Source of the DNA: Candidatus Woesearchaeota archaeon
GTDB taxonomy: Archaea > Nanobdellota > Nanobdellia > SCGC-AAA011-G17 > PNOQ01
NCBI GenBank assembly: GCA_018663865.1
Contig: JABJPM010000022.1
Location: 1 to 33,621, forward strand
Length of the DNA stretch: 33,621 nucleotides
Direction: 5' to 3'
Positions 1,994-15,994 of this stretch are shown piece after piece. The notes under the pieces were generated by a model. It searched no databases. It saw only the letters and a list, made by a program, of their open reading frames with translations, and was not told where the DNA came from. The position numbers were made by a program, and so were the translations under genes. Within the stretch, counting starts at the first letter, position 1. Every line of letters begins with the position of its first letter.

Positions 1994-2663
1994 TTTTTTG
2001 AATGTGTGTTATGATTAGTAATAATAGTGCATATCCGCCCAGTTGAATTATTTCTCCAGCCAGATAGAATAGTTTTCCAAATGTTGTAAATATAAAAAAT
2101 ATTTGACTTGCAGAAATTATCGAAAAACTTAATGCAAGTAATTTTGTGTTTATGAATAAATTTTCTGAATACTTTTTCCAGTAAAACGCGGAAATAGATA
2201 TTAAGAATATTAATGATGTCAAATGAAATATGTAATAATTTGAATTACTGAAGTAAGTGGATATCAGTATAAAATAACTCATTAAGAAAATATTGGAAGA
2301 TGTTTGTTTTCCTTGGTATAATTTGTATAATAGATATAATCCTATTAAATTGAAAAATGCAAATATGGTGAATGTTAGGTTTGAGAATATATTGTACTCT
2401 CTTATTATTTGCAAGGTTTGTATGCCTATTTGCGGATTTATTAAGTCATCATAAAACATTGCCACATTTGTTAATAATTTGAATAAGAATGATAGTGCAA
2501 TGAATGAAAATGATATGGATAAATATAATGATTTTTTGTTTTTGTTCAATTTATAATATTTCAAACTAACTAATCCAATTAAAAATAGTACTATGAAACT
2601 GAATAAGTCTATCACTAATGATGGAAATTGAAACCAATCTAGTGTATGTTTTAAATATATCAT
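1974..2663 (-). CDS. polytopic membrane protein, unknown function
   Basis: 229 aa, about seven hydrophobic segments; 3' end overlaps the start of the wHTH gene by 20 nt. Confidence 0.7.
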
Positions 2664-2702
2664 AAAATAAGGACTAAAAATTGGTTTAAAAATCTTTTGA
2701 AA

Positions 2703-4172
2703 TTAGCTAATTTCGAATATTTCTTTAATTTCTGTCTTTGCATAGTTTAATTTTTCTTTATTTTCTGCATATATTGTAAGAATTGTTTCTCTTTTGTTTA
2801 CTTTCTCTTTTAATTTTTTATGTAAATAAACTCCTGCGCCTTTATTTCCTGGCGCTCCAGCTAATCTAGCTAATGTTGCGATTTTCCTATTATCGATGCT
2901 TTTAATTTTTCCTTTTTTAGGAGCTTTAACATTATACGTATATTCTCCCAAGGGAATATTTTCTGGAAGGATATTTGGATTTCCTTTTTGGGCTTTTATT
3001 ATTTCTTTAAATTTTTTATATGCTTGCCCACTATTCAATATGTTTTTTGCGGATATTTTTGTATTTGTTAGTTTGAAAATTTTGTCTGCCATCATTAATG
3101 CTTTTTTCTCCAAATCTTTTGGGGCATTTTCTTCCCTTCTTAATATTCTTAAAACATCTATCGCTTCGAGTGCTGGTCCAACTCCGTTTCCAATTGGTTC
3201 ATCTGCTGGAGTGATTATCACCTTTGTTTTTATTTTAAGAATTTTGGATATTTTTTCAAATCTTTTTTTTAAATGTCTTGCTTCTTTTTTTGTTTGAACC
3301 TTTGCATTTTTACCCAATGGGATATCTAACAATAAATGTGTTGCTCCGACTGCATGTTTTTTTGCTAATATTGAAGCAATCATTAATCCTGCAGGATCTA
3401 ATCTTAATGGATGTCTTATTTTAATTAATTTTGAATCTGCTCCTGTTACTTCCATACCTTCATTCCAGACTAAACAGGCATTTGTTTTTTTAATAATTTT
3501 TTTCATTTGTTCTGTACTGAAACTAATTTTGGATAGTACTTCCATTGTATCTGCCGTTCCAGCTGGACTTGTTATTGATCTGGATGAAGTTTTTGGCATT
3601 GTAATTCCTGCTGCTGCAATTATTGGAGCGATGATCATTGAAGTTCTGTTGTTTGGCACCCCCCCAATACAATGTTTGTCTGCAATTATTTTTTTATTTA
3701 ATTTTAATTTTTTCCCTTCTTTCAAAGTTGCTTTAGTTAAGTGTTCTACTTCTTTGTCTGTCAATTTATTGTTGTAGCATGCTGCAACAAAATATGCAAT
3801 TTCGACTTCTAGAAGTTCATTTGATCGTAAATCATTCATTATTAGATTGATTTCTCTTTTTGATAATTCTTTTCCTTCTAATTTATTTTTTATTGCTCTT
3901 ACCGATTTCGGAGTTTCAGAAGGAAATACTTTTATTTTGTTTTTAGTATTTAATTTAAAATAAGTTTCATTGAATAGTCCAATTTTACCTTTTGGTATAT
4001 TTGAAGAGACATCTAATAATGCATATATGGTTTTGTTTTTATTCACTATTTTTAATCTATCAAATGCATGTATTTTTAATTCATTTGCATCTTTTTCATT
4101 TAATACTACAATCAATGGTCCCCCTGAGGACACATTTAATTTTTTAGGAATTAGCTGCATTCTCTTCCTCAT
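2703..4172 (-). CDS. deoA: AMP phosphorylase (thymidine phosphorylase family)
   Basis: 489 aa with KHCIGGVPNNRTSMIIAPIIAAAGITMPKTSSRSITSPAGTADTMEVL and the archaeal N-terminal extension; RuBisCO and R15P isomerase homologues are nearby. Confidence 0.92.
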   Translation of the reverse strand: MRKRMQLIPKKLNVSSGGPLIVVLNEKDANELKIHAFDRLKIVNKNKTIYALLDVSSNIPKGKIGLFNETYFKLNTKNKIKVFPSETPKSVRAIKNKLEGKELSKREINLIMNDLRSNELLEVEIAYFVAACYNNKLTDKEVEHLTKATLKEGKKLKLNKKIIADKHCIGGVPNNRTSMIIAPIIAAAGITMPKTSSRSITSPAGTADTMEVLSKISFSTEQMKKIIKKTNACLVWNEGMEVTGADSKLIKIRHPLRLDPAGLMIASILAKKHAVGATHLLLDIPLGKNAKVQTKKEARHLKKRFEKISKILKIKTKVIITPADEPIGNGVGPALEAIDVLRILRREENAPKDLEKKALMMADKIFKLTNTKISAKNILNSGQAYKKFKEIIKAQKGNPNILPENIPLGEYTYNVKAPKKGKIKSIDNRKIATLARLAGAPGNKGAGVYLHKKLKEKVNKRETILTIYAENKEKLNYAKTEIKEIFEIS

Positions 4173-5160
4173 AAATTCTGTATATTACAAATAAGATAGA
4201 AAGGATTAGTGGCCCGACAATTATTCCAGGCAAGCCCATGAGATTTATTCCTCCAAGGACTCCCAGTAGAATTACTATTGGATTTATGTTTGATTTCATC
4301 CCCATAAGTTTTGGTTTAACTAAATTATCCAAATAAGATATGAATGCAAACGAATATATGAATAATAATATTGCCCCGGTAAAGTTTCCCATAACTGCTA
4401 AATAGATTGCTGCCGGAACATAGACTGTTGCTGGCCCAACTATCGGGAAATATGCTGCTAGGACGATTACAAAGGCCCAAATAAGTGGGTTTGGTATGTT
4501 AAAGAGATAAAACCCTATGAATGCAATAATTCCTTCTAATATGGCGACTATGAGTATTCCAGAAAGTAAACCCCTAATAACACCATTTATTTCATTGAAT
4601 AGTTTTTGTTCTACATTATCTTGGATTGGCAAGAATTTTTTCAATTTTCTTACGAATTTTTTCCCATCTTTTAATAGGAAGAATAATGTGAAGAAGAATA
4701 TGAAGAAATTTAAGAATCCCTTTACTAATTTTTCTAATAGGTTTGCACTAGAAATTATAAAAAAGTTTGAAATTCCTTGTAATGAATCTCTCATGTGCCT
4801 TTCAAAATTTATATTTAATCCTGTGTATTTGTTTATGTTTTCAGAAAATTCGGTTAATTCAATTGCGTTTGCTGAATTGTAAATGTTTATTGTCTCTTCT
4901 AAAAATCTACTTGCAAAGAAAATTAAGGGTATTACGACTAGTAGAATTATTAATGCAATTACTATTATACTTGATAGACTTTTTTTATGTGTTTTTTTAT
5001 GTAATCTTTTATATAGTGGATGTGCTGCAACTGCAATTACTGCCGCACCTAGTAATGGTGCGATGAATGGTGCAATTATTTTGTATGATGTGTAGAGTAG
5101 CAATAGGATTAATGCCACCACAATAAAATTAGAATATTTTGAGAAATTGAATTTTTCCAT
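4144..5160 (-). CDS. AI-2E family transporter / PerM-like permease
   Basis: 338 aa, multi-TM, LIWAFVIVLAAYFPIVGPATVYVPAAIY and C-terminal GVLGGINLMGLPGIIVGPLILSI typical of the family. Confidence 0.85.
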   Translation of the reverse strand: MEKFNFSKYSNFIVVALILLLLYTSYKIIAPFIAPLLGAAVIAVAAHPLYKRLHKKTHKKSLSSIIVIALIILLVVIPLIFFASRFLEETINIYNSANAIELTEFSENINKYTGLNINFERHMRDSLQGISNFFIISSANLLEKLVKGFLNFFIFFFTLFFLLKDGKKFVRKLKKFLPIQDNVEQKLFNEINGVIRGLLSGILIVAILEGIIAFIGFYLFNIPNPLIWAFVIVLAAYFPIVGPATVYVPAAIYLAVMGNFTGAILLFIYSFAFISYLDNLVKPKLMGMKSNINPIVILLGVLGGINLMGLPGIIVGPLILSILFVIYRIYEEENAANS

Positions 5161-5181
5161 AGTGTTTTTTATTGGTTATTC

Positions 5182-5189
5182 TTTATAAA
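5182..5189 (-). promoter_or_regulatory. TATA box TTTATAAA for the AI-2E family transporter gene
   Basis: Centre is 25.5 nt from the first base of ATG (5160), the leaderless spacing seen repeatedly in this window. Confidence 0.5.
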
Positions 5190-5197
5190 TATATTTA

Positions 5198-6493
5198 TTA
5201 CTTTAAGTTGAATTTATCAAATGCCTGTTCCAATTCCCTATGTGTTTTGGCATATTTTTTTAGAGGTATTTTTTTCATGGTTGCTTCAATTGCTTGCCTC
5301 ATTGATCTTGCACCAGCTTTTGTTCCATTCGGATGTCCGTGAACTCCTCCGCCCGCTTGGATCACAATATTTGTACCCATAGTTTTTACAATGTTTGGAA
5401 TGTCCAATGGTGATACTCCTCCGGATGCAACTGCTAATACTGGTTTAGTTTTGTACCAATCTTGTTCCAATCTATTTAGTCTAGGATTTGCTTTGATTTT
5501 TTGTTGTTCTATTTCTTCTTCTATTGATAATTCTTCTTTTGCTGAACCATACATTTTTCCTATTCCTGCGGTCCCAATATGTAGTTGATCTGTTCCTAAT
5601 AATCTTGATATTTTTGCTAAAGCTAGCATGGATATTCCGTGTTCTGGATTTCTGGTCAATGCACCATGCATTGCCCTATGCCCGTGAATGGCTAGTTTCA
5701 ATTTGTTTGTAACTTTTCTCATTGATGCCAAAGCACTCCACCCAACTGTTAGGATATCAATCATTACAAATTCCCCTCCATTTTTTTTAACATATTCTGC
5801 TCTTTTTTTCATTTCTTCATATTCCGCAGTTATATTTGGAAGATAGATTTTTTTCTCGCCAGTTTCTTTTTCAGCTTTATTTCTTGCTTTGAGAGTTAAT
5901 TTTATTCTTTTGTAAAAATTATTAAATTCCATTGATGTTAAATTTTCATCATCTTTCACAACATCTAACCCGCCTGCCCAGGATTCGTAAGCTACCTTTG
6001 CATGTTGTTTTTCTGTTAATCCAACCTTTGGTTTTACAATCGTACCAATCAGGGGTCTATTTTTTACCTTGGTTATTTTTCTAACTCCCTTTATCCCATA
6101 TTTTGGGCCAGGAAATGATTTTACAATACTTTCTGGAAATGTAATATCTTGTAGTTTTAATTTTTCTGCCTCTTTCATTCCGAATATGTTTCCAGCAATT
6201 GAAGATAAAATTCCAGACATGTTATTTTTTTCAAATAATTTTTCAGGATAGGCAATTCTCACTATGTTTTCTTTTTTATTTATGTAGAAAGCATGTGGTT
6301 TTAGTTTTTTGGCAATTGTTGGATTCATTGTTGAAATTTTTGTCCAAGTTCCAATTGATGATTCCCCTGCTAGAAGTTCACAAATCCTTTCTAGTGAAAC
6401 TCCCTTTATTGGTTTTACTCTATATTCGACAATTAGATCAGTTTTTTTTGGTTTATACTTTTTATCAACAAATTCACAATTTCCATAAATCAT
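5198..6493 (-). CDS. rbcL: ribulose-1,5-bisphosphate carboxylase, archaeal form III type
   Basis: 431 aa; LAGESSIGTWT, IGTIVKPKVGL, GGLDVVKDDEN, HGHRAMHGALTRN, HIGTAGIGKMYG, ASGGVSPLDIP and QAGGGVHGHPNGTKAGA all match RuBisCO active-site blocks. Confidence 0.94.
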   Translation of the reverse strand: MIYGNCEFVDKKYKPKKTDLIVEYRVKPIKGVSLERICELLAGESSIGTWTKISTMNPTIAKKLKPHAFYINKKENIVRIAYPEKLFEKNNMSGILSSIAGNIFGMKEAEKLKLQDITFPESIVKSFPGPKYGIKGVRKITKVKNRPLIGTIVKPKVGLTEKQHAKVAYESWAGGLDVVKDDENLTSMEFNNFYKRIKLTLKARNKAEKETGEKKIYLPNITAEYEEMKKRAEYVKKNGGEFVMIDILTVGWSALASMRKVTNKLKLAIHGHRAMHGALTRNPEHGISMLALAKISRLLGTDQLHIGTAGIGKMYGSAKEELSIEEEIEQQKIKANPRLNRLEQDWYKTKPVLAVASGGVSPLDIPNIVKTMGTNIVIQAGGGVHGHPNGTKAGARSMRQAIEATMKKIPLKKYAKTHRELEQAFDKFNLK

Positions 6494-7134
6494 TTTTGTA
6501 CCTCTTTTATTAATTTTGGTAATTCTTTAATATCTTTAATTATTACATTAGCATTATTTAAAGTTTTCCAGGTTTGTTTCGGTCCAGTTTTTATTATTAT
6601 TGATTTTACTTTGGCCGCTTTTGCAGTTTTTATATCTTGCACTGTATCCCCTACCATGAATTTTACTTTTTTCTTTAATTTTTTTTCTACTTTGTAGATT
6701 TCATCTGGAAATGGTTTTGCCCTTTTTACTTCATCATCTCCAATTATCAATTTGAAAAGTTTTTTGTCTATTTTTGTTTGTTTCAAAATTAATTCTATTT
6801 TTTTATGAGAATTATTGCTTAGGAGGCACAAAGTATATTTTTTGCTTAAATTGGTTAATATTCTTTTTGTATTTTTGAATGGTTTTATGAGATCTATTTT
6901 TTCATTTCTGATTTCTTCGAAATCTTTTTTTATTTTATTTATTTCTTTTTGTTTTAATTCAGGATATAAAGTTTTTATTTGTGTTGTAAGATTTAGCCCC
7001 CAAACTGAGTATAATTCTTTGTTGGTTACTTTTATTCCATTTTTTTTGAATGCTAATTTTTCTGATTTCTTTATCCATGCCTCGGTATCAACTAATGTCC
7101 CATCTAAATCAAAACAAACTATCATTTTATCCAA
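6490..7134 (-). CDS. HAD superfamily phosphatase (phosphoglycolate phosphatase-like)
   Basis: FDLDGTLVDTEAW, LCLLSNNS and VGDTVQDIKTAKAAKVKSI motifs; 4-nt overlap with rbcL start and 13-nt overlap with e2b2 end. Confidence 0.85.
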   Translation of the reverse strand: MDKMIVCFDLDGTLVDTEAWIKKSEKLAFKKNGIKVTNKELYSVWGLNLTTQIKTLYPELKQKEINKIKKDFEEIRNEKIDLIKPFKNTKRILTNLSKKYTLCLLSNNSHKKIELILKQTKIDKKLFKLIIGDDEVKRAKPFPDEIYKVEKKLKKKVKFMVGDTVQDIKTAKAAKVKSIIIKTGPKQTWKTLNNANVIIKDIKELPKLIKEVQK

Positions 7135-7919
7135 GAATATTCTTTTTTTACCTTATTTACAAATTTCTTTGGTTTTAATACGCCCAATTCTGAAACAATT
7201 CCTTTAATATTTTTGTTTGGAATTATATCAAATGCTGGATTTTTTATTGTAATATTTTTATTTGCTACATCCCATATTTCCTTTGAATCTCTGTTTTCAA
7301 TTTTCAATTTTTTTGAAGAGTATTTCCAAGAATTTGTTATTATGAATAATGGAGTTTTGTGTTTTTTTGCAAGTTCTGAAATTGCATAACTTCCAATTTT
7401 ATTGTAAACATTCCCTTCCGAATTTATATAATCTGCACCCAGCAGGATTATATTCGAATTCTTTATCGCATCTTCTGCAGCAGAATCAACATAGTGGTTT
7501 ACTTTTATTCCCATTTTTGCAAGTTCATTTGCAGTTTTTCTTCCCTGGTATAAGGGTCGGGTTTCAGTATTATTTACTGAAAATTTTACATTTACTAGCT
7601 TTAATGCCCCAATTACTGTTGAAGAATGGCAATGCGTGAAAATTTTTGAATTTTTTTTGATCAATTTTGATGCAATGTTTTCAACTCGTTTATCCATGTT
7701 TCTTAGATAATTGTATGATATTTTTGGGTTTTCAACTTCTTTTGCATATTTAATTGCATTTTGTAAACATGGTTCTGTTGGCCTTGTTTTAAGAATTAAT
7801 TTTATCGATTTATAATCTGGTTTTAATTGCATTGCTTTTAATCCATTTAGTGCAATGTTTGTTGCGCCTTGGATTTTTAAGGATTTTATGTCTTTTATTA
7901 TCTTATTAAATTCGTCCAT
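7122..7919 (-). CDS. ribose-1,5-bisphosphate isomerase (e2b2/eIF2B-like)
   Basis: 265 aa; THCHSSTVIGAL, ETRPLYQGRKTANELAKMGI, VDSAAEDAI and LLGADYINSEGNVYNKIGSYAISELAKKHKTPLFI of the eIF2B/R15P isomerase family; co-located with rbcL and deoA. Confidence 0.88.
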   Translation of the reverse strand: MDEFNKIIKDIKSLKIQGATNIALNGLKAMQLKPDYKSIKLILKTRPTEPCLQNAIKYAKEVENPKISYNYLRNMDKRVENIASKLIKKNSKIFTHCHSSTVIGALKLVNVKFSVNNTETRPLYQGRKTANELAKMGIKVNHYVDSAAEDAIKNSNIILLGADYINSEGNVYNKIGSYAISELAKKHKTPLFIITNSWKYSSKKLKIENRDSKEIWDVANKNITIKNPAFDIIPNKNIKGIVSELGVLKPKKFVNKVKKEYSWIK

Positions 7920-7958: not shown

Positions 7959-8813
7959 CTAATCTTCATCTATTATTGATCTTCCTTTCAATTCTTTCCA
8001 ATCTTGATCGGGTCTAACTTCCAAGTTTGTTTTCCAGGCACCTTCTAAAACATTTGGTTCAATGTGTTTTTCTTTTGAAAAATGAATCATTGCTTGCATG
8101 TCTTTCGGGAAGCAACTTCCCCCAAAACCAAATTTCCCATCTGGTCCAGGAACTTGAATATGTGATTTTCCAACTCTTTCGTCTTTTGTGAACCCTTCAA
8201 TTGCCGTTTCCCAATTCACTTCAGATTCATTGGCAATTAATTTCATTTCATTCATAAATGAAACTTTTGTTGCAAGAAAGCAATTATTCATATATTTTAT
8301 AAATTCTGCAGTTTCATAATTTGTTTGAATTACCGGCAGATCATCTCCGAATCTTTCTTTGAACAATTTTGCAATTTTGTTTGTGTGATCTTTATTTCCT
8401 CCTAAAATTACTCTTGATTGATTTATAAAATCTGAATTTGCATTTTTTTCAGTTAAAAATTCTGGATTAAATACTATATTCAAATTGGGAAATGATTTTT
8501 GTATTTCATTTGTTGTTCCAGGGGTCACAGTGGATCTTATTAAAACAATATTATCTTTTCTTTTATTGATTTTATTTATTTCTTCTAGGGCTGAATAAAT
8601 TATATCTAGGTGGATTGATCCATCTTTATTTGATGGTGTTGGGACTGATAAGAAAATATAATCTGATTCATTAATTGTCTCATTTAAACTATGCGTGGAT
8701 TTTGTCTTGTCTTTATCATAAATTCTAATTTCTGCATTCCAACCAGATTTTTCTGAAAATCCATACTCTACTGCCGACCCAACAAACCCTCTCCCAATTA
8801 TCCCTATTTTCAT
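7959..8813 (-). CDS. UDP-glucose/GDP-mannose dehydrogenase family protein, short form
   Basis: GIIGRGFVGSAV Rossmann motif, FLSVPTP, STVTPGTT, NPEFLTEKNA, FGFGGSCFPKDMQAM (catalytic Cys), NLEVRPDQ; ends at 284 aa without a recognisable C-terminal UDP-binding domain. Confidence 0.88.
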   Translation of the reverse strand: MKIGIIGRGFVGSAVEYGFSEKSGWNAEIRIYDKDKTKSTHSLNETINESDYIFLSVPTPSNKDGSIHLDIIYSALEEINKINKRKDNIVLIRSTVTPGTTNEIQKSFPNLNIVFNPEFLTEKNANSDFINQSRVILGGNKDHTNKIAKLFKERFGDDLPVIQTNYETAEFIKYMNNCFLATKVSFMNEMKLIANESEVNWETAIEGFTKDERVGKSHIQVPGPDGKFGFGGSCFPKDMQAMIHFSKEKHIEPNVLEGAWKTNLEVRPDQDWKELKGRSIIDED

Positions 8814-9792: not shown

Positions 9793-11277
9793 ATGTCTAG
9801 AGAAAGAAAATTATTATTTGATGCCTCATTGGTTTTTGTAATGGGGCTTTTGGCGGCCATCTTCGGCTATTTAATTAGGGTTATCCTTTCTAGACAACTT
9901 TCCCTTGAAGAGTTTGGTTTATTTTATGCAGTATTCACGTTTGTAAGTTTTTTTATTGTTTTTAGAGATTTTGGACTTGGTCAGGCTTTAGCTAAATTTA
10001 TCCCCCAATTTTTGGTAAAAAAAGAATATGGTAAAATTAAAGCATCTATTAAATTTGCTTTTTTTATAAATTTATTTATGGGCATGATTTTTGCTACATT
10101 TTTCATAATATTTTCTGATTATTTGGCAATAAATTATTTTAAAAATGAATTGGCAAAATCACTATTAATAATATTATCTGCATATTTTGTCCTATATGCA
10201 ATTTATAGGCTTATTATTTTAATTTTTTTAGGTTTTCAAAAAAGTAAAATATATTCTCTAAATTTATTTTTTATAAATTTTTTTGTCTTTATAGGAATTC
10301 TTATTTTCAAAAAATTTGGAGTGTTAAATCCTGCAATTTCCTATTTATTTGCTGGATTAATGGGGATTATTTTTGGTTTCATTTTATTATTTAAATCTTT
10401 TTCATATTTTAAATATGTTGAAAATAATTCATATGAATTAAAACTTAAATTGTTTTACTATGGATTTCCGATTTTGCTTGCTTCCATTGGCGCGACATTC
10501 ATTGGACAAATTGATACCCTATTATTAATCAAATTTAGGACACTTCCGGAGGTCGGAATCTATAATGTTGTTTTGCCAACAGCCATGCTTTTGATAACGT
10601 TTGGAAGTGCACTAGCAATGGCGATGCTACCCTTTGTTTCAGAGTATTGGGAAAAGAAAAAATTTAAAGAATTATCAAATATTCTTTTAGATATTTATAA
10701 AAAATCATTCATTATAATTGCGCCAATTGGGCTAACTTTATTTATTTTTTCTGATCTTATTCTTAAAGTTTTATTTGGCGAATCTTTCATTTCCGGTTCG
10801 ATTGCACTTAAAATATTATGCATTGGTTCCATATTTTTTTCTGTTGCTGTAATTAATAATAATGTTCTCGCTGCGATTGGTAAACCAAAAGAAGTAACAA
10901 AACTTATTTTATTTGCAGCATTACTTAATTTAATTATTAATTTAATTTTGATTCCCCAATATGGGATTATTGGTGCAGCATTGGCAACTAGCGCATCTTA
11001 TTTTGTTGTTTTGATATTATCTACGTATTTAGTCAATCAATCTGTTAAACTAAAAATTCCAATTTTAGATTGGATTAAAATATTTTTTGCTGGAGTGGCA
11101 TTTACATTATTAGTTAATTTATTTAAAAATATTTTAGAAATGAATGTTTTATTAGAAACTACTGTTGTTTTAATCATTGGATTAATTGGTTATTTTTTAA
11201 TTTTAAAAATTATTGGGATTGATGTTTTTGGTTTATTTAGATTAATGCGACCTGATTTTATAAATCACAAGATATAA
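9793..11277 (+). CDS. polysaccharide/oligosaccharide flippase (Wzx-like, MOP superfamily)
   Basis: 494 aa, about 14 TM segments; N-terminal GYLIRVILSRQLSLEEFGLFYAVFTFVSFFIVFRDFGLGQALAKFIPQ is classic polysaccharide biosynthesis protein. Confidence 0.9.
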   Translation: MSRERKLLFDASLVFVMGLLAAIFGYLIRVILSRQLSLEEFGLFYAVFTFVSFFIVFRDFGLGQALAKFIPQFLVKKEYGKIKASIKFAFFINLFMGMIFATFFIIFSDYLAINYFKNELAKSLLIILSAYFVLYAIYRLIILIFLGFQKSKIYSLNLFFINFFVFIGILIFKKFGVLNPAISYLFAGLMGIIFGFILLFKSFSYFKYVENNSYELKLKLFYYGFPILLASIGATFIGQIDTLLLIKFRTLPEVGIYNVVLPTAMLLITFGSALAMAMLPFVSEYWEKKKFKELSNILLDIYKKSFIIIAPIGLTLFIFSDLILKVLFGESFISGSIALKILCIGSIFFSVAVINNNVLAAIGKPKEVTKLILFAALLNLIINLILIPQYGIIGAALATSASYFVVLILSTYLVNQSVKLKIPILDWIKIFFAGVAFTLLVNLFKNILEMNVLLETTVVLIIGLIGYFLILKIIGIDVFGLFRLMRPDFINHKI

Positions 11278-11378: not shown

Positions 11379-12332
11379 ATGAAAATAAAAGAATTCAAAG
11401 GCGGTTCTTTGAGTAGTACTGCCCTGCACGAAGAAGACGGCAAATTATTTGTCAGAAAAGAAATTTCAATAATCAAAAATAGGGAATATGGTTTCCAAAG
11501 ATGGTATTCTCAACTCAAAAGAATTCAAAGATATAATGTCTTATTTCCAGGGTCATATCCTGAAATATTAGATTTTGGGATAAAGGGGGATCGTGCATTT
11601 ATGGATATTGAATATATCGAATCTGCCGACTCCGGAATAGAATTTTTAAAAAAAGTAAAAACATTTGATGAAGTAAAACTTTTTTTTAATGAATTGATAT
11701 CAGTCATGGATAAAATTCACGAAACAAAAATAAAATCCTCTAAAAACCCCATTAAATTATATTTTCAGGAAGAAGTAAAACAAAAAATAATTGATTGTAA
11801 ATCAAACTTATTTTTAAACCATTACAAAAAACAAAAAATTGTTTTTAACAATATCACCATAGATGCCCTTTCAACACAATTAAATGAATATGGGAAAATG
11901 TTCGAATCATTCTATACAAACCCTATTGAAACATTTTCTCATGGAAATTTAACATTAGAAAATTTAGTATACAATCCAGATACAAATAAAATCACGCTTA
12001 TTGATGTTTATGAAGAAAATATCATAGATTCAAAATATGCTGATTATTCCCAGATATTACAATCTTGCAATTCTAATTATGAGCTATACAATGAATCAGA
12101 TAATCCAGATTTAATTTCTATTCCTTTTGGATTGAAAAGTTTTAAAAAATTATTCAATGAATATTTAAACAATCAATTGTCGAAGGAGGAATTAATATTT
12201 ACAAAATTGTTGGAAATTTCACAATTTATTAGAATGTTGCCCTTTAAAGATGAGATTGCTCCAAAAAAAACTATCTTCTTTTATAATTTGGCATCATATC
12301 GCCTACACGAATTGATTGGTGAGTTAAAATGA
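11379..12332 (+). CDS. aminoglycoside phosphotransferase/choline kinase-like protein
   Basis: GKLFVRKEI (ATP Lys-like), HGNLTLENLVYN catalytic-loop position, ITLIDVYEEN metal-binding-like motif. Confidence 0.65.
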   Translation: MKIKEFKGGSLSSTALHEEDGKLFVRKEISIIKNREYGFQRWYSQLKRIQRYNVLFPGSYPEILDFGIKGDRAFMDIEYIESADSGIEFLKKVKTFDEVKLFFNELISVMDKIHETKIKSSKNPIKLYFQEEVKQKIIDCKSNLFLNHYKKQKIVFNNITIDALSTQLNEYGKMFESFYTNPIETFSHGNLTLENLVYNPDTNKITLIDVYEENIIDSKYADYSQILQSCNSNYELYNESDNPDLISIPFGLKSFKKLFNEYLNNQLSKEELIFTKLLEISQFIRMLPFKDEIAPKKTIFFYNLASYRLHELIGELK

Positions 12333-13456
12333 ATGAATGGAATATTAATACTAGCCTTCCGATCGATTATACAATAAAAATTTCTAATGATCTTTTTTCG
12401 GTCAATAATAATGATTTACTTCAAACTGGAGAAAAAAAAGAAAACATGCGTAGATTGATAGTCATCGATAAAAACGTATATGAATTATATTCTAAAAAAA
12501 TTTTAAATTATTTTAATCATTATGATGTTAAATGTTCTATTGTTTTATTGGAGGGTGGCGAACAAAATAAAAATTTAGATGCTTTGATGTATTTGTTGAG
12601 CGAAATTGAAAAATTTGGATTGCTGAGGCGAGGAGAACCAATAATAGCAATTGGAGGGGGAGTTGTTTTGGATATCGTCGGCCAAGCCGCGAGCATGTTT
12701 AGAAGGGGGGTGCCCTACATACGTATTCCAACAACACTACTGGGAATTGTTGATGTGAGTGTTGCTGCAAAAACAGGAATAAATTTTTTAGAACGTAGGA
12801 ATAGGATTGGGTCCTATTATCCTCCGATTGCAGTCTATTTAGATAAAATTTTCATAAAAACTCAAAACTCTCTTGAAATTTCTTCTGGAATGGGAGAAAT
12901 ATTAAAAATGGCAATTGTTAAAGATAATAAATTATTTGAACTTTTGGAAACTTATGGCGAAGAATTATTAGAAACAAAATTCCAACATGAAATATCCGAT
13001 GAAGTAATTGAAAGATCAATAATTGGCATGATTGAAGAATTGGAAATCAATTTATGGGAAAAAAATTTAAAACGTTTGGTCGATTTTGGACATTCGTTTA
13101 GTCCGATTATCGAAATGAGGTCAATTAATACTGAGAATCCTTTAACGCATGGTCAAGCGGTAACTTTGGATGTATTATATTCTTGTTTAATTTCAAAATC
13201 TAGGGGTATGTTATCTTCTGAAGAAGTTAAACGGATATTTGCAACAACTAAAAGGTTAAAGTTACCCCTTTATCATCCTCTTTTTGGCAACTCAATTTTA
13301 TTAAAAGAATCTTTATCAGATACTATGAAACATAGGAATGGAAAACAAAATTTACCCATCCCCGTAAGAATCGGAAAATCAATATTCATTAATGATTTTA
13401 AATATGAAGAGCTTATTCAGATATGCGAACAACTAAAAGAAAAAAATGAAAAATAA
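12329..13456 (+). CDS. sugar phosphate cyclase: sedoheptulose-7-phosphate cyclase / 2-epi-5-epi-valiolone synthase-like (3-dehydroquinate synthase superfamily)
   Basis: GGGVVLDIVGQAASMFRRGVPYIRIPTTLLGIVDVSVAAKTGINF, RNRIGSYYPP, GMGEILKMAIVKDNKLFELLE, VDFGHSFSPIIEM, THGQAVTLD, HRNGKQNLPIPVRIGKSIFINDF. GHSFSPIIEM replaces the DHQS-type GHTFGHAIE. Confidence 0.87.
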   Translation: MNEWNINTSLPIDYTIKISNDLFSVNNNDLLQTGEKKENMRRLIVIDKNVYELYSKKILNYFNHYDVKCSIVLLEGGEQNKNLDALMYLLSEIEKFGLLRRGEPIIAIGGGVVLDIVGQAASMFRRGVPYIRIPTTLLGIVDVSVAAKTGINFLERRNRIGSYYPPIAVYLDKIFIKTQNSLEISSGMGEILKMAIVKDNKLFELLETYGEELLETKFQHEISDEVIERSIIGMIEELEINLWEKNLKRLVDFGHSFSPIIEMRSINTENPLTHGQAVTLDVLYSCLISKSRGMLSSEEVKRIFATTKRLKLPLYHPLFGNSILLKESLSDTMKHRNGKQNLPIPVRIGKSIFINDFKYEELIQICEQLKEKNEK

Positions 13457-14123
13457 AATAATAGTAATCACGGGCAGTAGCAGCGGATTGGGATCAACGT
13501 TAGTGAAAGATTTGTGTGTTAAACATCAAGTAATAGGGTTATCAAGGAATAACAATGAATTTAATGAACAATTAAGTAATTTTAAATATATTAAAACAGA
13601 TATAAGCAATTCTATGGATGTGAAAAATGCATTTGAACAAATAAATTATCAATTTGGAAAAATAGATATTTTAATTAATAATGCGGGAATATTCATCACA
13701 AAATCATTTGACAAATGTGAAGTTAAAGAAATAGATGATATAATTGATACAAATTTAAAGGGGCCCCTATACTGTATTTTAGAAACATTGAAAATAATGA
13801 AAGCTGGTCGCATAATTAATATCAGTTCAGTATCCGGAAATAACGCAATTGCTGATCAAACAATTTATTCTGCTTCGAAGTTTGGTCTGAATGGATTTTC
13901 AGATGCATTGGGCCAGGAAGTCCAAAATAAAAAAATAAATATTACTACCATTTGCCCAGGGGGAATGGATACTCCCCTTTGGAATGAAAAAAATCCCTAT
14001 GTTGGAAATGGAAAAATTTTAAATACTAGTGAGGTTAGTGAATTAATACAATATGTAATAAAATTACCAGATCATATTGTATTAAAAAAAATAACATTAT
14101 TTCCGAAAAATGAATGGCATTAA
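13446..14123 (+). CDS. short-chain dehydrogenase/reductase
   Basis: TGSSSGLG, NNAG, NISSVSG, YSASKFG and CPGGMDT SDR motifs; 11-nt overlap with the cyclase. Confidence 0.9.
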   Translation: MKNKIIVITGSSSGLGSTLVKDLCVKHQVIGLSRNNNEFNEQLSNFKYIKTDISNSMDVKNAFEQINYQFGKIDILINNAGIFITKSFDKCEVKEIDDIIDTNLKGPLYCILETLKIMKAGRIINISSVSGNNAIADQTIYSASKFGLNGFSDALGQEVQNKKINITTICPGGMDTPLWNEKNPYVGNGKILNTSEVSELIQYVIKLPDHIVLKKITLFPKNEWH

Positions 14124-14832
14124 ATTAAATTTGATTCTCACAATGGCTGGCACTTATGCTAGATTTACCAAGGAGGGATATAAAATACCAAAATATTTAC
14201 TCCCATGGGGATCAACAACAATTATTACAGAACTTCTTAATGAGTTTACAAAAACAAATATAATTGATAATATTTTTTTAATTGCTAATAGGGAGGATAT
14301 GGATTATGCTCCCCATCTACAAAAAACATTAAAACATTTTAATATCCCCAAAGAAAATTTGGTCTATATTGATACCACTGCTGGACAAGCCGAAACTGCA
14401 GCAATTGCAATAAAAAAATTTAAAACAAAATTAAAAGACGATCCTTTTCTGATTCATAATATTGATACCTTATTGTATAATCGAGATTTTAATCAAATTA
14501 AAAAAAGTTTAGAAAAAAATGATGGATACATAGATATTTTTGAATCTAGTAATCCGGCATATTGTTATTTATTATCTAATGATGCAAATGAAGTTTATGA
14601 AATTGCTGAAAAAATTTTAATTTCTGATATGGCATCATCTGGGCTATATGGATTTACAAATTCAAAAATATTTTTGGACAATTTTGATAATGAAATTTTT
14701 ATTAGTGAGATATATAAAAAAATAATTAAATCTGGGAAAATTTTATCTGGAATATTGTATGATGAATCCTCCACAGTTGTTTTGGGAACTCCCGTTGAAT
14801 ATGTTAATAAAACAAATTTATTAATTAAATAA
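14110..14832 (+). CDS. sugar/cyclitol-phosphate nucleotidyltransferase-like
   Basis: LILTMAGTYARFTKEGYKIPKYLLPWG (divergent G-x-G-x-R-F...PK signature) and HNIDTLLY; 14-nt overlap with the SDR. Confidence 0.78.
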   Translation: MNGIKLNLILTMAGTYARFTKEGYKIPKYLLPWGSTTIITELLNEFTKTNIIDNIFLIANREDMDYAPHLQKTLKHFNIPKENLVYIDTTAGQAETAAIAIKKFKTKLKDDPFLIHNIDTLLYNRDFNQIKKSLEKNDGYIDIFESSNPAYCYLLSNDANEVYEIAEKILISDMASSGLYGFTNSKIFLDNFDNEIFISEIYKKIIKSGKILSGILYDESSTVVLGTPVEYVNKTNLLIK

Positions 14833-14836
14833 TAAA

Positions 14837-15994
14837 ATGGTAAAAATAGGCATTGCAATAAGTTTATATGATAAATTTGAAGAGCTTTCATTATTAATAG
14901 ACATAATTAGATCCAATTGGAACGGAGAATATGTAATCTCGGTGTGTTGTAATCATCCAGATGGAAAGAAAAAAATACAAAATTTAGATATAGATTGTTA
15001 TTCTCAGGGAGAAGATATAAATTTTTCTAAATCGCTTACCGATTTTCAAAAAAAAATTAATTTAAATGGCCGAGTTTTAGATTCGATTAAAAAATCATGT
15101 TTAGGCGCGATTAATCATGGGGCAGATTATGTTATGCATTTGCATACAGATGCTTGGCCACTTAATGAACAATCTTTGTTGAATTTGGTTGATGATATGA
15201 AAAAATTCAAAAAAGGAATTGGATATCGTGGAATGGGGTTATCAAAATATAGGCCAGATTGTCCGCTGGGCCATGTGGATGATATGTTTCTTTTGTTTAA
15301 TTCTGAATTTGTAAAAAAAATTAATTTTTTCAATTTCAATCCATTATCCATTTTACCTAATCGATTAAGTATTCATGGCGCCATTTCGTCTCTATTGGTT
15401 GCTAAAGCTGGAATAGAGAATCTTTATTTTTATGAAGATCACACAAACCTTCTTTTTTGGGATGGTGAAAAACATAACCCCCTTTTTGAGAGGGCTAAAC
15501 CGACAATGTATGATTTAAAATATAAATTTTTACATGTGCACTCCCAATCTTTCATTAATGATTATTCAAGAAATATCCAGGCAATGTATCTTTTTGAAAA
15601 TGGAATTACAAATGGAAAATATATTTCAATTTTTTTAGATAAATATTTGATTAATAAGGATATATTGTTAGAGGAAATATCAAATTATGAAAATAAATTA
15701 TATCTAAAATTGAGATTTTGGGGATTTCCCATTATTAAATTTGGCAGATTTGGAAGGGATTTCAATAAAATGAAAATTTATTTAAATTCTTCATTCAGAA
15801 TCAAATTAATTTATTGGTTTAGGGTTAATATTATGTCTATGTGGGAAGAAACAATAAAGAAATGGTTTGGATTTGAATTATCCCCAAATTATTCTGTTTG
15901 GCCAGAATCTTTAAATGATCTTTATTTTAAAAATTTAAATCAATCTGATTATCCAGAATTTTTAATTTGGTGGAAAAAAAGTAATTCTGAATGA
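14837..15994 (+). CDS. putative glycosyltransferase-like protein, divergent
   Basis: IGIAISLYDKFEELSLLIDIIRSNW N-terminus and DYVMHLHTDAWPL acidic motif resembling a GT-A D-x-D-like site; 4 nt after the nucleotidyltransferase. Confidence 0.5.
   Translation: MVKIGIAISLYDKFEELSLLIDIIRSNWNGEYVISVCCNHPDGKKKIQNLDIDCYSQGEDINFSKSLTDFQKKINLNGRVLDSIKKSCLGAINHGADYVMHLHTDAWPLNEQSLLNLVDDMKKFKKGIGYRGMGLSKYRPDCPLGHVDDMFLLFNSEFVKKINFFNFNPLSILPNRLSIHGAISSLLVAKAGIENLYFYEDHTNLLFWDGEKHNPLFERAKPTMYDLKYKFLHVHSQSFINDYSRNIQAMYLFENGITNGKYISIFLDKYLINKDILLEEISNYENKLYLKLRFWGFPIIKFGRFGRDFNKMKIYLNSSFRIKLIYWFRVNIMSMWEETIKKWFGFELSPNYSVWPESLNDLYFKNLNQSDYPEFLIWWKKSNSE

Follow-up and report, generated by a model that had tools for sequence, protein, structure and literature searches.

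What a tight run of five genes makes in a Candidatus Woesearchaeota archaeon, and where those genes came from, is the question raised by the locus described here. The window (the whole stretch analysed, 33,621 nucleotides of contig JABJPM010000022.1) contains five + strand open reading frames at 11379–15994, the ends of which overlap or nearly touch: consecutive genes overlap by 4, 11 and 14 bp, and a 4-bp gap then precedes the fifth gene. These coordinates match those of an earlier sequence-only reading, which proposed an operon for an NDP-activated C7-cyclitol. The genes are listed below with a flippase-like gene, given as context only, which ends 101 bp before the kinase gene on the same strand; the fourth and fifth genes are assigned by remote similarity.

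9793..11277, + strand: polysaccharide flippase-like gene, upstream context (Polysacc_synt, E 1.4e-24)
11379..12332, + strand: APH-fold kinase-like protein, cassette gene 1 (317 aa; weak Choline_kinase match)
12329..13456, + strand: EEVS-like sedoheptulose 7-phosphate (S7P) cyclase (375 aa; DHQ_synthase N- and C-terminal domains)
13446..14123, + strand: short-chain dehydrogenase/reductase, SDR (225 aa; adh_short, E 3e-47)
14110..14832, + strand: sugar-1-phosphate nucleotidyltransferase-like protein, NTase (240 aa; NCBIfam NTP-transferase, PDB 4evw)
14837..15994, + strand: putative glycosyltransferase-like protein with an HLHTDAW motif, archaeal add-on (385 aa)

A sigma-70 promoter scan stayed at chance level; the sigma-70 model is inapplicable to archaea.

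Class of the cyclase

Among solved structures, the cyclase matches ValA best (PDB 4p53, E 9.5e-85), followed by DDGS (5tpr, 2.6e-60) and DHQS (8e-39 or weaker). Its identity to the cellular EEVS found reaches about 42% at most. We compared six ValA positions that we take to be discriminating, a choice partly based on work on ValA; the residue states were read from our own alignments. In these, EEVS have the signature ELDHHH, DDGS EEAHHT, EboD EIDHHH and DHQS EVNHH plus a variable residue. The window cyclase has ELDHHH, the EEVS state, at the following aligned positions:

12896..12898, + strand: E190, ValA E213, metal ligand
13040..13042, + strand: L238, ValA L267 (EEVS have Leu, DDGS Glu, DHQS Val/Ile and EboD Ile)
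13082..13093, + strand: D252-F-G-H255, ValA D281...H284 (at position 281, EEVS have Asp, DDGS Ala and DHQS Asn; the His is a metal ligand)
13148..13150, + strand: H274, ValA H300, metal ligand
13331..13333, + strand: H335, ValA H360 (EEVS have His, DDGS Thr)

Thus, at ValA positions 267, 281 and 360 the window has L/D/H where DDGS have E/A/T, and it differs from DHQS both in Asp281 (Asn in DHQS) and in a KHR motif in place of DKK. A data-derived set of columns, at which five EEVS share one residue that the class compared lacks, gave the EEVS residue at 12 of 12 columns against DHQS, 19 of 21 against EboD and 11 of 14 against DDGS. In the tree, the cyclase falls inside the EEVS/DDGS clade, and full support separates it from both DHQS and EboD; because DDGS are nested in the same clade as EEVS, the tree alone cannot separate these two. 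Judged by these sequence comparisons, the cyclase is EEVS-like, and neither a shikimate DHQ synthase nor a DDGS. The EEVS/DDGS-like assignment of the sequence-only reading is upheld, and the grouping with DHQS that it had named as refuting did not appear when 12329–13456 was placed phylogenetically. The Pfam and NCBIfam domain names of the cyclase (DHQ_synthase and aroB) would make it a genuine 3-dehydroquinate synthase, a reading that we consider next to negligible, given an aroB score of 214 bits against a cut-off of 305, the missing DHQS signature and a position outside the DHQS clade. No second DHQ_synthase-family gene was found in the archaeal assembly.

A four-gene cassette in viruses

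Cyclases 46–60% identical to that of the window are encoded on 80 IMG/VR virus contigs, from phages not in culture, with ELDHHH in 80/80. These loci contain the cyclase (80), the SDR (78), the kinase (77) and the NTase (74). Kinase, cyclase and SDR abut in that order wherever the contig is long enough, the kinase or SDR being missing only at contig ends, and the NTase is nearly always present; in four loci (L097, L098, L106 and L145) the sole NTase found is distant and non-adjacent. The four nearest viral relatives (L066–L069) have the order KIN-CYC-SDR-NTP, which is the window's own. Conversely, a search led by the kinase found the cyclase adjacent in 80/80 loci, and kinase orthologues beside viral cyclases are 32–49% identical. 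An S7P cyclase is therefore linked to genes which, by family, would provide reduction, phosphorylation and activation, as in C7-cyclitol clusters. The sequence-only reading was to fall if the five genes never co-occurred elsewhere; kinase, cyclase, SDR and NTase do recur together on these contigs, beyond chance, and the fifth gene was not found in any of them. In distribution, the cassette is not archaeal: phages carry its relatives, and the archaeon has the look of a recipient.

The SDR carries S128, Y141 and K145 with a TGxxxGxG motif, and the S, Y and K together with N103 are at least 90% conserved across 79 cassette SDRs. The NTase matches 4evw, and with the family profile it reaches E 2.7e-33; R18, P27-K28 and D119 are kept in 90% or more of the 75 rows compared.

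In 68 of the 80 viral cyclases a KV pair is found, as in DDGS, where EEVS and the window have KT. This leaves some room for a cyclase that uses S7P and forms another product (for instance 2-epi-valiolone, a ring of the gadusol type or a new compound), the remaining pathway being similar. Function is not strictly bound to clade in this superfamily, and a confirmed EVS would be called DHQS by its tree position (PMC5133447). We nevertheless consider another product unlikely, as the window and all 80 viral cyclases keep L267, D281 and H360, which separate EEVS from DDGS, in a comparison with EEVS, DDGS, EboD and DHQS that included no characterised EVS.

These counts depend on the search used. An EEVS profile retrieved 110 relatives from the viral contigs, where a single-sequence scan had returned nothing, a limit of sensitivity; on genome contigs, a single-sequence scan with shallow coverage of bacterial genomes gave only a DHQS-like locus. 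The same limit may hide cellular relatives. Among GenBank phages, cyclase matches reached only about 24–32% and no close cassette kinase was found; gp311 of phage G is a distant relative.

A kinase-like protein with an altered motif

The AlphaFold model of the first protein (pLDDT 94.4) predicts an APH/choline kinase-like fold: in Foldseek, its best PDB matches are aminoglycoside phosphotransferases (E 9e-8 to 4h05, TM about 0.5–0.6 in the best rows). The protein lacks the catalytic Asp of the canonical HGD motif, Asn taking its place:

11940..11948, + strand: codons of H188-G189-N190, HGN replacing the canonical catalytic HGD

HGN was read in 76 of 78 rows of a first kinase set, the other two being one LGN and one uncovered, and in 80/80 of a second. 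HGD is kept in 8/8 cyclase-less relatives examined. With HGN so strictly tied to the cyclase, the protein lends itself to tests of whether kinase chemistry has been altered or abandoned. The protein could be a scaffold or binding partner and no kinase, the cyclitol being activated otherwise or not at all; it is the split between HGN in every readable cyclase-linked member but one and HGD in the eight cyclase-less relatives that recommends this view. Even so, we rate it as rather improbable. The glycine-rich K7-S10, K27, N195 and D209 are conserved in the cassette family, and a phosphorylating step is expected in the pathway, because the cyclase should remove the phosphate that comes with the sugar, while the NTase depends on a phosphate ester.

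Proposed pathway and supply of substrate

We propose that the first four genes probably form a transferable cassette that makes a nucleotide-activated C7-cyclitol, and that in the archaeon this cassette has been joined to a glycosyltransferase-like protein. The EEVS-type cyclase would convert S7P to 2-epi-5-epi-valiolone with loss of phosphate, after which the SDR would reduce the ring ketone, the APH-like protein would phosphorylate the cyclitol and the NTase would join the cyclitol phosphate to a nucleotide. In the archaeon, the fifth protein may then place the cyclitol onto a glycan made by the polysaccharide locus around it, a role that other transferases adjoining the cassette would fill in phages. 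Going by the neighbourhood, the acceptor may be a glycan, a lipid or a secreted molecule. In the C7-cyclitol pathways known so far, C7 is phosphorylated, and epimerisation and dehydration take place as well (PMC7081202); the cassette has no gene for either of these last two steps.

The idea of an NDP-activated cyclitol operon thus gains an EEVS-like cyclase tied to kinase, SDR and NTase, and is weakened by a kinase without the catalytic Asp and by the lack of a detected S7P-forming enzyme. Neither transketolase (PF02779) nor transaldolase (PF00923) was found in the archaeal assembly, which is 93% complete. Likewise, no transaldolase that might serve as a phage-borne source was found in 24 cassette contigs. 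PF02779 is present in 48/104 genomes of the order and in two of the eight other genomes of the family. If the cell is unable to make S7P, the archaeal substrate might be another phosphorylated ketose, or a partner cell might supply S7P or the product, as the missing PF02779 and PF00923 and the six family genomes in which PF02779 was not found would allow. We think this decidedly improbable, given that all six EEVS positions examined are retained, that part of the genome is missing from the assembly and that two family genomes do have PF02779.

Origin of the archaeal copy

The archaeal cyclase is nested within viral diversity, and a clade of the viral rows minus the window was rejected (p-AU 0.0098). 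The cyclase is absent from the 8 other genomes of the archaeal family, no EEVS type occurs among the typed archaeal matches, and a kinase search of a phylum sample gave no further archaeal copy. Most likely, the four genes reached the archaeon from a virus, or archaeon and viruses both drew on an unseen donor. Since the nearest relatives are viral, the operon might also be a provirus that escaped recognition, or phage DNA wrongly placed in an archaeal contig by assembly or binning. This we hold to be very improbable: the flanks carry genes for type III Rubisco and an AMP phosphorylase-like protein besides glycan genes, the Pfam matches showed no phage hallmark, an archaeal-type gene begins 4 bp past the NTase, and the GC content and codon fit of the operon lie inside the range of the other window genes.

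That gene, the fifth, has no Pfam or PDB match, and its single-sequence model (pLDDT 36) is too poor to use. Orthologues are 48–55% identical in three genomes (G381, G125 and G279) and 30% in a fourth (G045). In another family of the order to which the archaeon belongs, orthologues are situated close to NTase-kinase fusions. No match was found in the virus cassette loci of the cyclase-led and kinase-led sets. The fifth gene is best read as a separate archaeal add-on, a resident glycosyltransferase-like protein to which a mobile cassette was probably joined. The sequence-only reading had counted it in the operon; its glycosyltransferase activity is putative.

The known settings of EEVS chemistry are bacterial natural products and gadusol in animals; in the open-licence literature searched, phages and archaea are absent from that record, and no paper was found joining either to an S7P cyclase or a valiolone pathway. 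Tentatively, and at somewhat less than even confidence, we suggest that a widespread and so far undescribed set of large phages has its own pathway for a nucleotide-activated carbocyclic sugar mimic, decorating host-surface, virion or other glycans and using a kinase without the usual Asp, and that a DPANN-type archaeon adopted it for a surface glycan. If true, this would be the first C7-cyclitol pathway in viruses or archaea in the searchable literature. The tight four-gene linkage across many phage genomes suggests sugar mimics as a phage decoration strategy, and the cassette offers a minimal route to activated carbasugars.

Relation to known systems

The ValA/AcbC-type EEVS of C7N-aminocyclitol clusters (validamycin, acarbose) share the cyclase signature, clade and fold family, and there too the cyclase adjoins kinase and dehydrogenase genes. 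The acarbose route needs kinase, epimerase, dehydratase and reductase steps (PMC7081202). The bacterial EEVS loci examined carry ROK kinases with aminotransferases or other enzymes, whereas the cassette has one SDR, one NTase and, as its only kinase-like gene, one of APH fold, with no ROK.

In T4-like phages, RB69 ORF53_52c and Thanatos TH1_060 are NTase-phosphotransferase proteins proposed to act in making an activated pentose for DNA. They too combine NTase-like and APH-fold kinase domains, and RB69ORF052c structurally matches the cassette kinase; unlike the cassette, each is a single fusion protein, reported with neither cyclase nor SDR and associated with modified cytosine DNA. Glycosylation of hydroxymethylated phage DNA was considered as a role for the cassette and found no support: PF00303 (thymidylate synthase/hydroxymethylase family) has no match in 20/24 cassette contigs, possibly fragments, and the four matches may be thymidylate synthase.

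Modules of HAD phosphatase, NTase and APH kinase, found in capsule loci and in phages (Pseudochrobactrum, Legionella, phage G, S-CBWM1), share the kinase and NTase neighbours, but an HAD phosphatase replaces cyclase and SDR, and HGD is kept. EboD of the ebo operon, for which S7P is the proposed substrate (PMC5133447), belongs to the sugar phosphate cyclase superfamily and shares D281 and H360 with the window cyclase, but forms a separate clade (100/100), has Ile at 267 and is flanked by other ebo genes. DDGS of the mycosporine pathway, within the same clade as EEVS, differ in their EEAHHT signature and in their O-methyltransferase and ATP-grasp-like neighbours.

The five-gene unit

The five genes occupy a single strand of the window, and the spacing of their ORFs (overlaps of 4, 11 and 14 bp, then a 4-bp gap) bears out the same-strand, overlapping or near-touching arrangement described in the sequence-only reading:

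11379-12332 (+), kinase-like gene (KIN)
12329-13456 (+), sugar phosphate cyclase (CYC)
13446-14123 (+), SDR
14110-14832 (+), NTase (NTP in gene orders)
14837-15994 (+), fifth, glycosyltransferase-like gene

Sequence comparisons indicate a real, conserved cassette, the class and linkage of which are well supported and the function of which we infer. The archaeal assembly comprises 594,504 bp in 31 contigs and is 93% complete; genomes of the same order are small. Together with the type III Rubisco and AMP-phosphorylase-like genes of the window, this small size points to a probable DPANN-type archaeon.

Class of the cyclase

Pfam and NCBIfam label the window cyclase a DHQ synthase, an assignment contradicted by its aroB score (214 bits, under the cut-off of 305), its residue signature and its tree position away from DHQS. 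Among solved structures, ValA (an EEVS) ranks first (9.5e-85), followed by DDGS (2.6e-60) and DHQS (8e-39 or weaker). At six ValA positions (including 267, 281 and 360) the window cyclase reads ELDHHH, the state of the EEVS references, the class of which, ValA apart, comes from the record annotation 'sedoheptulose 7-phosphate cyclase' and not from biochemistry; DDGS reads EEAHHT, EboD EIDHHH and DHQS EVNHH plus a variable residue. The class comparison covered EEVS, DDGS, DHQS and EboD, in a set without a characterised EVS. A data-driven test, run against three rival groups with two EEVS sets, used columns that are constant in five EEVS and not shared by the rival: the window cyclase matched EEVS at 12/12 (versus DHQS), 19/21 (EboD) and 11/14 (DDGS) columns, and with a four-EEVS set at 21/26, 31/41 and 22/33, respectively, which is weaker, the direction being unchanged.

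In the first tree, the window cyclase groups with EEVS and DDGS (support 99/93), apart from EboD, 29 archaeal DHQS-like rows, a Clostridiales row and Salmonella AroB. A second tree with different rows again places it in the EEVS/DDGS clade, outside DHQS, in agreement with the EEVS/DDGS-like cyclase initially proposed. DDGS is nested in the clade holding EEVS in the first tree, and thus the split between the two rests on residues, not on the tree.

Cyclase matches were found in none of the eight other genomes of the archaeal family, in only three others among 104 order genomes (28-32% identity; class unassigned) and in 33 others among 380 phylum genomes. Of these 33, 29 were compared and 28 carry the DHQS signature. 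By these comparisons, the window gene is an outlier among archaea. The remaining archaeal cyclase (L030) is divergent, reads EHAHHC and fits none of the classes compared. In a related archaeon (L029), a DHQS-like domain lies within an 862-aa ORF, possibly a fusion. A Streptomyces plasmid 'sedoheptulose 7-phosphate cyclase' (L038:7917-9143) has Arg at the ValA H360 position and adjoins cupin and aminotransferase genes.

A cassette shared with viruses

Single-sequence scans had been without success; a profile scan of IMG/VR, with an alignment of six EEVS-type proteins as query, brought out 110 viral relatives, of which 80 were kept. Their cyclases are 46-60% identical to the window cyclase, above the best cellular EEVS found (42%), and all 80 carry ELDHHH. 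ORFs called on these contigs and compared by BLAST with the window's five genes, with near-identical contigs counted separately, gave CYC in 80 loci, SDR in 78, KIN in 77 and NTase in 74 (distant, at 23-24%, and non-adjacent in L097, L098, L106 and L145), members being absent only at contig ends. The fifth gene was found in 0/80, so that in these loci the proposed co-occurrence is seen for kinase, cyclase, SDR and NTase and not for the fifth gene. Gene order is NTP-KIN-CYC-SDR in 68 loci and KIN-CYC-SDR-NTP in four, the remainder being incomplete, with median gaps of -4 bp. A kinase-led search recovered 80 loci, the cyclase being present in every one; its query was independent of the cyclase-led one, and the samples overlap, many contigs being common to both. 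At L097:9841-13889, two large proteins directly follow the viral cassette, the first starting, by eye, like a NodU/CmcH carbamoyltransferase.

Judged by gene content, the cassette-bearing contigs are viral. Cassette neighbours include a DnaB-like helicase, a phage cytidyltransferase and phrog_455, and, in single loci, a phage clamp loader (L069), a topoisomerase II large subunit (L088) and a head maturation protease (L084); the 394-kb L066 contig encodes a translation initiation factor and tRNA-His guanylyltransferase. For L067 and L068, with no phage hallmark seen in the flank, viral status follows IMG/VR. In 50,697 GenBank phage records, neither the cassette cyclase nor the cassette kinase had a close relative.

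The AlphaFold model of the kinase (45 sequences; pLDDT 94.4) matches aminoglycoside phosphotransferases in Foldseek (TM about 0.5-0.6) and, among viral models, phage G gp311 (TM 0.78) and RB69ORF052c. Its catalytic motif is HGN (H188-G189-N190) instead of HGD, as in 76/78 kinase rows (one LGN, one uncovered) and 80/80 of a second set; in the eight relatives examined that lack a cyclase, HGD is kept throughout. HGN is thus strongly correlated with cyclase linkage.

Origin of the window cassette

The second tree joins the window cyclase to L066-L069 (100/98), inside a viral clade (100/100). A clade of the 22 viral rows without the window was rejected (p-AU 0.0098), for a group chosen after viewing the tree, against which the test's own note cautions. 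These four nearest relatives share the window's KIN-CYC-SDR-NTP order. Nesting and gene order together favour transfer from a virus or from a shared unseen donor, the direction being unproven and cellular donors inadequately sampled.

Proposed pathway

By established DHQS-type chemistry, the cyclase is predicted to expel the phosphate of the sugar. A kinase would therefore be required ahead of activation, and in cyclase-less modules a HAD phosphatase occupies the place of the cyclase. These two points suggest a scheme in which the cyclase would convert S7P to 2-epi-5-epi-valiolone (EEV) with phosphate loss, followed by reduction of EEV, phosphorylation, NDP activation and transfer; whether reduction or phosphorylation comes first, where the phosphate is placed and which nucleotide is used are guesses. 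More steps are involved in making acarbose (PMC7081202). We also considered that the cassette may serve phage DNA modification, as described for RB69 (PMC6024577) and Thanatos (PMC12838424); 20/24 viral contigs carry no thymidylate synthase/hydroxymethylase-family gene, absence being unprovable from fragments.

As for S7P supply, neither transketolase nor transaldolase was found in the 93% complete archaeal assembly, nor transaldolase in the 24 viral contigs searched. Since 48/104 order genomes, two of them in the window's family, have a transketolase domain, the absence here may reflect an assembly gap or true dependence on a partner.

The fifth gene and a proposed resident glycan system

Searches of Pfam and PDB, a profile search included, gave no match for the fifth gene, and its putative enzyme class comes from context and an HLHTDAW motif. 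Three genomes from a second family of the same order have orthologues at 48-55% identity; a further orthologue, at 30%, belongs to a different order. Near the orthologues of the three genomes are NTase-APH kinase fusions, accompanied, depending on the locus, by HAD or inositol-phosphatase-like proteins, an AroE-like enzyme or SDR, and GatZ-like and cupin proteins; no cyclase match was found in these three genomes. The viral-type cassette thus seems to have been plugged into the archaeon's resident glycan system. In L061 (same order; no cyclase match found in its genome), an operon at 2305-7693 runs AroE-like, HAD, NTase-APH fusion, GatZ-like, cupin and fifth-gene orthologue.

Other genes in the window

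A type III Rubisco gene and an AMP/thymidine phosphorylase-like gene cluster at 2703-7919 with HAD and ribose-1,5-bisphosphate isomerase-like genes, the isomerase and AMP_phos models scoring under their cut-offs. A 284-aa NDP-sugar dehydrogenase lies at 7959-8813, its N-terminal part and central domain matched and its C-terminal domain unmatched, and an ORF for a LAGLIDADG-type endonuclease at 1017-1652.
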